64,000 nt of DNA from Streptomyces sp. P9-A2 (lineage in GTDB: Bacteria; Actinomycetota; Actinomycetes; Streptomycetales; Streptomycetaceae): positions 1,984,001 to 2,048,000 of the forward strand of contig NZ_JAZIFX010000001.1 of NCBI RefSeq assembly GCF_036634175.1. Direction: 5' to 3'. This document shows, piece by piece, positions 44,642 to 64,000 of the stretch. A program made the position numbers and the translations under genes. The notes under the pieces were generated by a model. That model did not search any database. It saw only the letters and a program-made list of their open reading frames with translations, and was not told where the DNA came from. Numbering within the stretch: position 1 is the first letter of the stretch; each line of letters begins with the position of its first letter.

Positions 44642-44772
44642 GTGACTCCGCTCCCCTCTCGAAAGAAGGGGGCTTCCCACCCGAGGGTCGCGGTCCAGCC
44701 CGAACCGATCCCTTGCGGGACACCAGAAACGTACGCCAGGGATTCGATTCCCCCACCGGCTGAAGTCGGTGG
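44642..44772 (+). ncRNA. Candidate structured RNA element, copy A
   Basis: Shares with 63283-63364 the conserved blocks GTGACTCC (44642-44649), GGGCTTCC, GCGGTCCA, CGAACCGA and a CCC-TTGC-GGG hairpin ending in CAC (44723). Between the blocks the stem sequences differ but still pair. It is followed by hairpin GGGATTCGATTCCC (44739-44752) and hairpin CCACCG-loop-CGGTGG (44753-44772) with GAAGT in the loop; both have counterparts in copy B, but on the 5' side there. It lies in the leader of the epimerase gene, ending 20 bases before its ATG. It may be an IS200/IS605-like or HEARO-like remnant, or a cis-regulatory RNA. Confidence 0.45.
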
Positions 44773-44791
44773 TTCCCTCGAAAGAGGTCCG

Positions 44792-45694
44792 ATGGAACCT
44801 TCCCGAATCGCGGTGGCCGGTGCGTCCGGCCTCATCGGCGGTGCACTCGTCCGGTCCCTCACCGCCGACGGGCACCGGGTGGTGCGCCTGGTGCGCAGGA
44901 CTCCCCGCGCGGAGGACGAGGTGCGGTGGGACCCGGAGCGGGGGTCCGTGGACGCGGCCGGGCTCGCCGGGTGCGACGCCGTGGTCAATCTCGCCGGTGC
45001 CGGGGTGGGCGACCACCGCTGGACACCCGAGTACAAGGCGCGGATCCGCGACGGCCGGGTGCGGGGCACGGCCGCGCTCGCCGAGGCGTTCGCCGGGATG
45101 GAGCGGGACGTACGGCCGCGGGTGTTCGTGAACGGCAGTGCGATCGGCTACTACGGCGAGACCGGCGACCGGACGGTCGACGAGAGCGCGCCGGCGGGCT
45201 CGGGCTTCCTGCCGGAGCTGTGCGTCGAGTGGGAGGCCGCCGCGGCACCGGCCCGGGAGGCGGGCGTGCGGACGGCGTTCGCCCGGACCGGGCTCGTGGT
45301 GGCCCGCGGGGGCAGGGCGTGGGGCAGGCTCTTCCCGCTGTTCCGGGCCGGGCTGGGCGGGCGGCTGGGCGACGGGCGCCAGTACTGGTCGTACGTCGCC
45401 CTGCACGACGAGGTGGCCGCCCTGCGCCATCTGCTCGACACCGACGGGCTGTCCGGGCCGTTCAACCTGACCGCGCCGCACCCGGCGACCAACCGTGAGA
45501 TCACCGCGGCGATGGCGCGGGTGCTGCGCCGGCCGGCGGTGTTCGCGGTACCGGCGCCGGTGCTGCGGACGGTGCTCGGGGAGATGGCCCAGGACGTGCT
45601 GGGCAGCGCCCGGGTGCTGCCGACACGGCTGCTGGAGTCGGGGTTCCGATTCGCGTTCCCGGACATCGAGGGGACGATCCGCGCGGCGCTGTGA
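44792..45694 (+). CDS. TIGR01777-family NAD-dependent epimerase
   Basis: 300 residues, extended SDR fold. The Rossmann motif GASGLIGGAL is at about 10-19. VNLAGAGVGDHRWTPEYKARI and VNGSAIGYYGETGD (active-site Tyr region) are typical of TIGR01777/SulA-like proteins. The C-terminal DUF1731 portion ends with GFRFAFPDIEGTIRAAL. Substrate unknown. ATG 44792 has an AAAGAGG upstream. Its leader contains copy A of the structured element. Confidence 0.92.
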   Translation: MEPSRIAVAGASGLIGGALVRSLTADGHRVVRLVRRTPRAEDEVRWDPERGSVDAAGLAGCDAVVNLAGAGVGDHRWTPEYKARIRDGRVRGTAALAEAFAGMERDVRPRVFVNGSAIGYYGETGDRTVDESAPAGSGFLPELCVEWEAAAAPAREAGVRTAFARTGLVVARGGRAWGRLFPLFRAGLGGRLGDGRQYWSYVALHDEVAALRHLLDTDGLSGPFNLTAPHPATNREITAAMARVLRRPAVFAVPAPVLRTVLGEMAQDVLGSARVLPTRLLESGFRFAFPDIEGTIRAAL

Positions 45695-46248
45695 CGGGAC
45701 GGCCTGGGCGGAGGGCACCCCGGGTGCGGAGGATGCCAAGGGCGCGGAGGGTGCCAAGGGCGCGGGCCCGCCGGGCGGGTGTGCCCTCGGTGACCGCGGT
45801 CCGCCGTCGAGGCCCCGGAACCACCCCGGCCCGGGACCACCGGAGCGCGGAACCACCCCGGCCCGGGACCACCGGAGCGCGGGGCCGCCAGGGCGCGGGA
45901 CCACCGGAGCGCGGGGCCGCCAGGGCGCGGGACCACCGGAGCGCGGGACCACCGGAGCGCGGGCCCGCCGGGGCGGGTGCGCCCTCGGTGACCGCGGTCC
46001 GCCGTCGAGGCCCCGGAACCACCCCGGCCCGGGACCACCGGGGCGCGGAACCACCGGGGCGGGTGCGCCCTCGGTGACGGTGGTGTGTCGTCCGGCGGGC
46101 GTATGCGACCGCCGTGCGCCCGTGCCCCTGTCGATGCGCGACTCCCCGGGTGCCCTCCCGGACCTAACCTCGAGCAGAACTCGGGTATTCCTGGGGCCTG
46201 TTGGGGGCATGACGTCTCCAGCGTCCGCGCAACCTCGAGGAGGGGCAC
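45695..46248. repeat. Repeat-filled intergenic region
   Basis: 554 bases without a convincing gene. A 61-base segment (45783-45843) recurs identically at 45981-46041, with near-identical flanks extending the match to about 80 bases and a third partial copy from about 46070. In between are many copies of GGGACCACCGGAGCGC and GGGCCGCCAGGGCGC. The last part must contain the promoter of the FAD protein gene, whose GAGGAGGGG ribosome binding site lies at about 46237-46245. Confidence 0.75.
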
Positions 46249-62621: not shown

Positions 62622-63181
62622 GCAACACCACCCCGGTGTCGGGGAGTTCGGCCCGGGACCGGGTGCCGCCGCTCGGCCGGACTCTGACGTCATGACCACA
62701 AGGCGCGGGACCACGGGCCGCATGAGCGGTGCCACAACGGCCACGGACCCCACGAGCGCGGAGGCCGGGAGGTTGGTGGCCATGAGTTCGGAGGCCATGA
62801 GTTCGGAGGCCATGGGTTCGGCGGCCATGGGTTCGGCGGCCGGGAGCAGGGGCACCAAGAGGGGCGGCGGGCGTGAACGACACACCAAGGGCCTTCCGAA
62901 ACGGCCCAGGGCCGGTCCGACGCGGCGATCGCCGGCAAGCTGGTGGTGACGGAGCGCGCCATCGCCAAGCACACCTCGAACATCTTCGCCGAACCGGGCC
63001 TGGAGGTCTCGGACGACGACAACCGGCGGGTGCCGGCGGTTCTCGCCCATCTCGGCCAGGGCAGGCGAAAGGGGACCCGGTCACGCACCCCACGTGGTCG
63101 ATCAACAACCCCCGGTACTCCAGGGGCTGTTGAAACCAGTGCGCCGGCAGGAACTTCTCATCGATTTCCGTTACGGATGAA
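62622..63181. other. Gene-poor stretch with a decayed gene and repeats
   Basis: Contains four copies of an ATGRGTTCGGMGGCC 15-mer at about 62782-62841, the LuxR remnant at 62901-63066, and a hairpin built from CAACAACCCC and GGGGCTGTTG (about 63104-63133). No intact gene is seen. Confidence 0.5.
62901..63066 (+). pseudogene. C-terminal fragment of a LuxR/NarL response regulator
   Basis: GRSDAAIAGKLVVTERAIAK, then HTSNIF and VSDDDNRRVPAVLAHL, is the DNA-binding helix-turn-helix end of a NarL-type regulator. No receiver domain or LTxREREVL motif precedes it, and the region upstream is repeat sequence, so it is a relic. Confidence 0.6.
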
Positions 63182-63364
63182 CACCCCCGGGGCGGCTCCC
63201 GTATTCAAGGGAGCCGCTCCGCTTCTGTCGGGCGATTCGATACCCGTAAGGGGGTGCTCCTCAGCGAAGTCAGAGGAGTTCAGTGACTCCACCCACCGCT
63301 GAGGCGGCGGGCTTCCAACCGAAGACTGCGGTCCAACTCGAACCGACCCCCTTTTGCGGGGCAC
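63182..63364 (+). ncRNA. Candidate structured RNA element, copy B (long form)
   Basis: P1 pairs CACCCCC (63182-63188) with GGGGGTG (63250-63256). It encloses P2 (63192-63200 with 63209-63217, nine perfect pairs) and P3 (CGGG at 63229 with CCCG at 63243, loop GATTCGAT). P4 follows (CTCCTC 63257-63262 with GAGGAG 63273-63278, loop AGCGAAGTCA). The conserved module GTGACTCC...CAC is at 63283-63364. Blocks GGGCTTCC, GCGGTCCA and CGAACCGA match copy A exactly, and the intervening stems differ while keeping pairing. It lies in the leader of the secreted protein gene, ending 55 bases before its ATG. Confidence 0.5.
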
Positions 63365-63418
63365 AGCGCGAACTACCAGAGCACCGGGAAGGCCGAGAGC
63401 CCCCTTGCGAGGAGAATG

Positions 63419-64000
63419 ATGGGACGCAATACAAGAAAACGCCGTATGCCGTTGGCCGCCAAGGCCGTGGCCGGGACGGCGGTCCTGGCGCTCGGTGGGG
63501 GCGGGCTGGTCTGGGCGAACTTCTACGCTTCGGCCGGCGAGTCGAACCAGTCGCAGAATCAGACGAAGGCGAACGCGGCACAGCAGATCGCCACGATCGA
63601 CTGCCCGGACGTGGGCCAGCAGCTCCCCGACGTGCCGGACCCGGCCCGCGGTGAGGTCGACGGCGAACTGGCCTCGATGGACCAGCAGATCACCGACGCC
63701 TATCAGAGCCTGGTCACCACCCGCCGGGCTCAGGCCGGGGACTCGCGGTACGTCCAGAACACCATTCTGGGTCCGCTCAAGGACCGGCGTAAGGCGCTCA
63801 TCGACCGGATCAAGCTGCAGATCACCCGCGCGGGCGGTCAGGCTCCCGGGAACCTGGACGAACTCGCCTCCTGCTCCGGCCGCCCCGCCGACCAGCCGCT
63901 GCCGACCGACGGTCAGAACGGTGACGGCCAGGACGGCGGTGGCCAGGACAACGGTCAGGACCAGGGCGACGGTCAGAACGACGGCGGTCAGAACGACGGC
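63419..64000 (+). CDS. Secreted protein, N-terminal part, related in design to the one at 59307
   Basis: Incomplete at the window end; 194 residues are visible. A basic start ([15 protein letters not shown]) and a hydrophobic core form a signal peptide. A helical domain bounded by two Cys (IDCPDV and LASCSG, about 90 residues apart) ends in a charged [16 protein letters not shown] helix similar to RIANREAVIAEIEL in the 59307 protein. A Gly/Gln/Asp repeat linker (DGGQN type) then runs off the window. GAGGAG at 63409-63414 favours the second of two adjacent ATGs (63419). The leader contains structured element copy B. Confidence 0.8.

Follow-up and report, generated by a model that had tools for sequence, protein, structure and literature searches.

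What is the structured stretch that precedes a secreted-protein gene near the end of the 64,000-nucleotide window of Streptomyces sp. P9-A2 DNA analysed here, and why does part of it recur in the same window? The initial annotation had read positions 63182..63364 as a conserved RNA in the leader of that gene, with unpaired blocks that recur exactly in a second place while the stems differ and keep pairing. Both observations hold: the four blocks at 63283-63346 reappear in the same order at 44642-44708, and the changes in the stems are truly compensated. Taken singly, the 8-mers GTGACTCC (5 in the window, 3.7 expected) and CGAACCGA (2, with 4.1 expected) are near chance, and GGGCTTCC occurs 9 times with 4.2 expected, a count reached in 4 of 100 shuffles. 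The ordered four-block pattern has 5 matches in the 8.4-Mb genome and none with a reversed control, and it is present in 22 of the 295 genomes of a genus sample versus 4 with the reversed control. Our best reading, to which we give a probability of about 0.85, is that both places hold a miniature IS200/IS605 element without TnpA and TnpB that has kept its two ends and an omegaRNA scaffold. The features of the two copies are the following:

63283..63418, minus strand: copy 1 of the miniature IS200/IS605-type element, 136 bp from its right end (63283) to its left end (63418)
63283..63368, minus strand: omegaRNA/reRNA-like scaffold core and right end of copy 1, assigned by homology to tnpB 3' ends
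63263..63282, minus strand: putative guide of the copy-1 omegaRNA, in the host leader adjoining the right end, placed by the reRNA layout in PMC8612924
63273..63278, plus strand: the host gene's native Shine-Dalgarno, GAGGAG, now separated from the gene by the insertion
63369..63418, minus strand: left end of copy 1, degenerate, placed by its position and the common ...GAGGAGAATG/ATGG boundary
63409..63414, plus strand: element-borne Shine-Dalgarno GAGGAG of copy 1, from the sequence (equivalent place in other copies: AGGAGACTG/ATGG)
63419..63422, plus strand: ATGG, which contains the start codon; as CCAT on the minus strand it is the motif targeted by insertion
63419..64000, plus strand: host gene of copy 1, a secreted-looking protein with DUF1996, running off the window
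44642..44791, minus strand: miniature element, copy 2 (150 bp), missing in the orthologues L212, L213, L217, L223 and others
44642..44727, minus strand: omegaRNA/reRNA-like scaffold core and right end of copy 2, assigned by the covariance model and tnpB-end homology
44753..44772, no strand assigned: left-end hairpin CCACCGGCTGAAGTCGGTGG of copy 2, from the sequence, matched by the left ends of L271, L272 and L351
44784..44787, plus strand: element-borne Shine-Dalgarno GAGG of copy 2, from the sequence
44792..45694, plus strand: host gene of copy 2, an NAD-dependent epimerase with DUF1731 (PF01370, PF08338)

The DUF1996 assignment comes from PF09362 (E 2.6e-28), matched with the longer reading frame available at locus L010. 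Short repeats lie close to both copies: GC-rich tandem-like repeats with GGGACCACCGGAGCGCGG units at 45690-46000, 3' of the epimerase gene, and a short tandem-like repeat with GGCCATGAGTTCGGAG-like units at 62770-62845, 5' of copy 1.

The borders first drawn were partly misplaced, with the element beginning only at 63283 and reaching as far as 63418. The first hairpins with their GAAGT loop (63182-63282), which had been counted in, are the gene's own upstream region and are partly matched in relatives without the element. The comparison with relatives also gives the exact junctions. The window reads ...GTCAGAGGAGTTCA/GTGACTCC...GAGGAGAATG/ATGGGACGC at the secreted-protein gene, and all eight relatives read ...GTCAGAGGAGTTCC/ATGGGACGC, apart from minor differences after the start codon; copy 1 has no counterpart in any of these eight orthologous leaders, in which the native GAGGAG lies directly 5' of ATGG, and its junction 5' of ATGG is precise. 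Like junctions without the element were found at manA (8 of 8 relatives) and at a pruA-like aldehyde dehydrogenase gene (8 of 8). At the epimerase locus, 14 orthologues, counting only loci in coding orientation, lack the element in the 150 nt upstream, and the cleanest junctions are those of L212, L213, L217 and L223. Since element-free relatives share the same junction, the element is at these four loci a precise insertion of 136-153 bp directly 5' of ATGG, without target duplication. Insertion 5' of ATGG is insertion 3' of CCAT on the antisense strand, which is how IS200/IS605 elements behave, entering 3' of a short fixed motif without duplicating it; left ends of the autonomous subfamily likewise follow CCAT in eight of nine legible cases, and TCAT in one. 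Some TnpB-linked left ends in the genome follow TTTGAT or CTGA-type motifs and not CCAT, and several subfamilies with different targets seem to coexist there.

The family to which these insertions belong was established with a covariance model of the element core, R1, built from 37 copies after five with indels in P4 (L010, L084, L121, L127 and L149) had been set aside from 42. Copy 1 scores 62.8 bits with it and copy 2 96.7. The model, a check that the initial annotation had proposed, finds seven copies in the genome (E <= 1.7e-7) and further ones in relatives. It also links the element to TnpB: among 44 loci examined, a tnpB reading frame was recognised beside the R1 match in ten, and in all ten it lies opposite in strand to the model match, so that on the strand of tnpB the element aligns with the gene's 3' or right end, as a reRNA does. 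In the window's own genome, 6 of 18 weaker R1 matches overlap or adjoin (by at most 52 bp) the ends of PF07282 domains, each on the opposite strand. Six more of the 18 (G000:C1 1111629, 1564718, 3185665, 3855997, 4579335 and 6002057) have equal scores of 21 bits and were taken as chance; they probably mark a multicopy gene, possibly in rRNA operons. The minus-strand reading of the element closes with ...GGAAGCCCCC...GGGGAGCGGAGTCAC, comparable to the tnpB right ends ...GAGAAGCCCCC...GGGGGAGGAGTCAC, and the scaffold core of copy 1 has GGAGTCAC as its terminal letters.

Complete relatives of the miniature exist in the same genome. Loci L271 and L272 each carry a transposase reading frame, tnpB and both matching ends: their left ends are 75-84% like that of the miniature over 44-65 nt, and their right ends close with ...GTGGAGTCAC and ...GAGGAGTCAC, respectively. 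Pfam finds a Y1_Tnp domain in the TnpA of L271 and TnpB domains in the TnpB of both; that of L272 matches the ISDra2 TnpB structure 8bf8 (E 1.7e-33), and both keep, by eye, D/E/D-like RuvC motifs. A further locus, L351 of genome G527, has a left end 91% identical to the miniature over 44 nt (E 6e-14), and R1 matches it where tnpB ends, again opposite in strand to the gene; G527 holds at least one full miniature as well (L185). Both ends of the miniature are thus homologous to those of tnpA+tnpB elements, which bears out an early hint at IS200/IS605-type ends. The statement that no nuclease gene is present is right for the window copies, which lack tnpA and tnpB, yet full elements with similar ends lie elsewhere in the genome, where PF07282 (TnpB) is matched 36 times, in 4 cases below the curated cut-off. 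The scaffold is a distant relative of the tnpB-linked ones, with about 16-36 bits at tnpB ends versus 50-100 for the genome's own miniatures. That complete elements carry the matching ends and scaffold argues that the window copies are miniature IS200/IS605 derivatives, consisting of ends and scaffold, whose genes were lost. The complete tnpA+tnpB element at L272 (G000:C1:7653000-7657700) appears to have disrupted the 3'-terminal portion of a gene, and we take the piece beyond it to resemble the end of an FAD-linked oxidase.

On which strand, then, is the RNA encoded? The ISDra2 RNA runs with tnpB (PMC8612924), and homology to tnpB right ends points to the minus strand here; the initial annotation most likely read the wrong one. 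Base pairing leans to minus as well and depends on how the helices are drawn: helices drawn for minus pair in 96.1% of cells there and in 83.5% when mirrored to plus, and those drawn first on plus pair there in 92.1%, with 41 G-U pairs on minus versus 35 on plus. In the helices chosen on minus, wobbles number 66 on minus versus 11 on plus, a count that omits one pair which, on plus, is U-G in 25 of 37 copies. For 40 of 42 copies the minus strand gives the more stable fold of the core (mean -37.7 versus -31.7 kcal/mol), about 4.2 of the 6.0 kcal/mol difference being accounted for by base composition alone; helices P1, P3 and P4 favour minus, P2 favours plus, and known tnpB-linked RNAs show an inconsistent preference, the tnpB strand being lower in three of six. 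A single sequence folds no better than its shuffles on either strand (z -1.0 to -0.2). Whichever the strand, the covariation is solid, with 31 double-change cells where shuffles give 10.9 and slid partners no more than 10; the lack of covariation that had been named as grounds for rejection is not what is seen, and base pairing is conserved as in a reRNA. With the compensated changes and the homology to the RNA at tnpB 3' ends, the description as a conserved RNA stands.

The element is patchily spread. R1 matches at E <= 0.001 occur in 26 of 297 sampled genomes of the bacterial family, 17 of them at E <= 1e-5, and at least five of the nine weaker genomes owe theirs to tnpB ends (L199, L200, L202, L203 and L205). 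Four of the 296 genomes in a class-wide sample are positive at E <= 1e-6, all from the genus of the window. One typical copy, used as query, had no match in phage and plasmid collections, nor did the ordered pattern in viral contigs. A scan of genome contigs for the exact pattern returned, among the matches listed, many chance ones from other phyla, and it was not used for the distribution. The TnpA subfamily is present in 10 of 297 genomes (E <= 1e-20) and overlaps with the 17 R1-positive genomes (E <= 1e-5) only in the window's genome, G000, and in G527. The remaining 15, among them G315 with its five copies, yielded no such Y1 transposase at E <= 1e-20. Co-occurrence of TnpA and miniature is thus weak, and as the matching TnpA is missing from most copy-bearing genomes, the mobiliser has perhaps been lost there.

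Movement and retention have nevertheless both left traces. Five copies, four from the window's genome and one from G142, are 90-96% identical, and their flanks are 59-65% identical in gapped alignment; such near-identity between unrelated flanks points to recent dispersal. Other copies are old: seven orthologous ones stand before one ABC-transporter ATPase gene (L084, L110, L147, L148, L153, L190 and L193). The 18-nt core GCGGTCCAGCCCGAACCG is identical in all seven, third codon positions are 72-97% identical pairwise, and the P1 stem varies in sequence and length while the core is kept, which suggests continued selection on the scaffold.

Most copies lie at start codons. A Shine-Dalgarno-like sequence and the start of a coding-like reading frame 75-200 nt downstream were found at 39 of 53 distinct copies, versus 497 of 4000 random points (12.4%); some copies belong to orthologous sets, with six in front of a single ABC-ATPase gene, so that the 53 are not fully independent, and the random points are unmatched for non-coding DNA. 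Dropped before this count were L025 and L123 (too short), L001 (a duplicate of L010) and L058 (no element). For 32 of these 39 copies, AGGAG or GAGG closes the leader just ahead of the start codon; the element thus provides a substitute for the ribosome-binding site that it displaces, and translation of the host gene would be preserved. Of the 273 ATGG sites in the window, a rough gene call puts 13 at predicted starts and a further 100 in non-coding DNA, and the target motif alone is therefore insufficient to account for the share at start codons; the survival of harmless insertions may explain it. Two copies in the window's own genome, L012 and L162, lie away from start codons. At three near-alike loci (L041, L144, L145) the copy gives way to a conserved stretch that looks non-coding, and no start codon follows the copy directly. 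As to the autonomous elements, the idea that they always sit at start codons was discarded, L272, L345 and L349 appearing by eye to lie inside genes; three further loci of autonomous type (L277, L279, L283) have only short reading frames behind the insertion point. Pfam domains were found in 25 of 28 downstream proteins scanned (37 are listed), which shows that the downstream genes are real and functionally unrelated: they encode an epimerase, ManA, an aldehyde dehydrogenase, an OtsA-like protein, adenosine deaminase, a biotin-synthase-like protein, Pup ligase and others.

This diversity bears directly on the suggestion that the element is a plus-strand, riboswitch-like leader RNA controlling the downstream gene. 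Such an RNA would lie just where the copies do, in 5' leaders and directly before start codons; the core shared by the seven ABC-ATPase copies despite variable third positions would suit it, as would the pairing that can also be drawn on plus in 92.1% of cells and the hairpin that may form over the Shine-Dalgarno in some copies (CCUCGAAAGAGG, by eye). Against it, no one pathway or metabolite links the downstream genes, the homologues are tnpB 3' ends on the other strand, and the same genes in the relatives examined go without the element, so that we consider a leader RNA distinctly improbable. Rfam gave no family at its gathering threshold, and sub-threshold matches at a lax setting were taken as chance. 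HEARO, the IscB-associated RNA brought up at the outset, was unmatched even at the lax threshold (two copies tried), and although an RNA rich in hairpins that precedes a reading frame and has a GTGA 5' border recalls it, R1 leads to tnpB right ends on the opposite strand, leaving the IscB assignment hardly credible. The element's GTG stands where the start codon was, and in copy 2 its frame runs open, with no stop, into the gene, as would befit a short leader peptide or an in-frame N-terminal extension. However, the distances from GTG to start fall in all three frames (23, 19 and 15 of 57 rows, a few of which are not real elements), many rows contain stops, and the changes in the core are compensatory; on the frame and stop statistics this candidate was rejected as having next to no chance of being right.

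The remaining alternatives accept the miniature and differ on what it does now. It could be dead, moved once by TnpA, its omegaRNA silent, and kept because its Shine-Dalgarno serves as the ribosome-binding site of the gene. The patchy spread, the rarity of a matching transposase among copy-bearing genomes and degenerate copies such as window copy 1 and L193 all agree with this. Yet the scaffold core is unchanged in the seven orthologous copies though neutral sites vary, and stem changes stay compensated; because both core and pairing should decay in a relic whose sole use is its ribosome-binding site, we regard a dead miniature as unlikely, while conceding it a real share of the probability. 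Alternatively, the omegaRNA could have been domesticated to steer TnpB or a nuclease-dead TnpB to host promoters, as in TldR systems. The core conserved at orthologous sites, a guide that would match the host leader and the many TnpB genes of the genome are compatible with such a role; but the insertion parts CCAT from the guide-matching sequence, and the element's own locus is thus no target, and the TnpB of L271 and L272, the two looked at, keep by eye their D/E/D-like RuvC motifs. We judge this role improbable too.

We therefore return to a mobile miniature, for which the observed ends, homology, precise insertion and dispersal, with full-length, domain-bearing TnpB encoded in the genome, permit the following scheme. 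An ancestral tnpA+tnpB element would have lost the genes between its ends, leaving ends and omegaRNA scaffold. A Y1 transposase (TnpA) supplied from elsewhere would excise the miniature as a single-stranded circle and paste it 3' of CCAT, the antisense of ATGG, without target duplication. Its left end would then adjoin the start codon and offer an outward Shine-Dalgarno, and the host gene would still be translatable from a leader now roughly 97-193 nt long. The right end would encode a minus-strand omegaRNA with the sequence just upstream of the start codon as its guide, and TnpB from elsewhere could cut empty alleles and so restore the element. That TnpA and TnpB would act in trans, and that CCAT would be the TnpB recognition motif, we infer by analogy with ISDra2: in that system (PMC8612924), TnpA places the circle on the 3' side of its motif, about 16 nt of flank close the reRNA, and TnpB cuts next to the motif of TnpA, the proposal there being that cutting of the empty site and repair restore the element.

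Carried to its end, this scheme describes a family of start-codon-homing TnpB satellites of about 150 bp, for which the antisense of the start codon would be both insertion and recognition motif, which would bring their own ribosome-binding site and omegaRNA, and which a TnpB encoded elsewhere would re-install whenever a sister chromosome lacks the copy; some copies would have persisted before one and the same gene in several species, with selection acting on their scaffold. We put this forward tentatively, as a possibility at rather less than even odds. If it is true, TnpB guide RNAs can live as separate mobile satellites, and a transposon can avoid damage by landing at start codons with a ribosome-binding site of its own. 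It would also be a caution that a conserved structured RNA in a bacterial leader may turn out to be the guide RNA of a mobile element, viewed on the wrong strand.

Miniature derivatives of IS200/IS605 elements and stand-alone omegaRNAs are known kinds, whereas for start-codon-targeted or TnpB-less omegaRNA elements no description was found in the open-licence literature searched. Non-autonomous derivatives such as the PATEs, which are MITE-like, consist of ends without genes and are mobilised in trans; unlike them, the miniature is found at start codons and has retained a conserved omegaRNA-like scaffold that appears to be constrained. Stand-alone omegaRNAs are guide-RNA loci without a nuclease gene that IscB or TnpB use in trans, whereas the miniature is a mobile element with exact empty sites, and use in trans would be assumed for it by analogy. 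The HEARO omegaRNA of IscB is likewise a structured RNA before a reading frame with GTGA at its border, and homology between it and the miniature was not found. With ISDra2 and IS608 (PMC8612924) the miniature shares palindromes at the ends, insertion 3' of a short motif without duplication, and a guide RNA made of the right end and the tnpB 3' end with the guide taken from the flank; it differs in having no tnpA or tnpB, in its length of about 150 bp, in its outward Shine-Dalgarno and in its CCAT target, mostly at start codons. It resembles TldR, the nuclease-dead TnpB repressors (PMC13418256), in placing a TnpB-type guide RNA near host promoters, but has no nuclease gene, and its guide would match its own flank. 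What appears to be new, measured against the open-licence literature, is the combination of exact placement at the start codon, a donated ribosome-binding site and a conserved antisense omegaRNA-like scaffold in one element.
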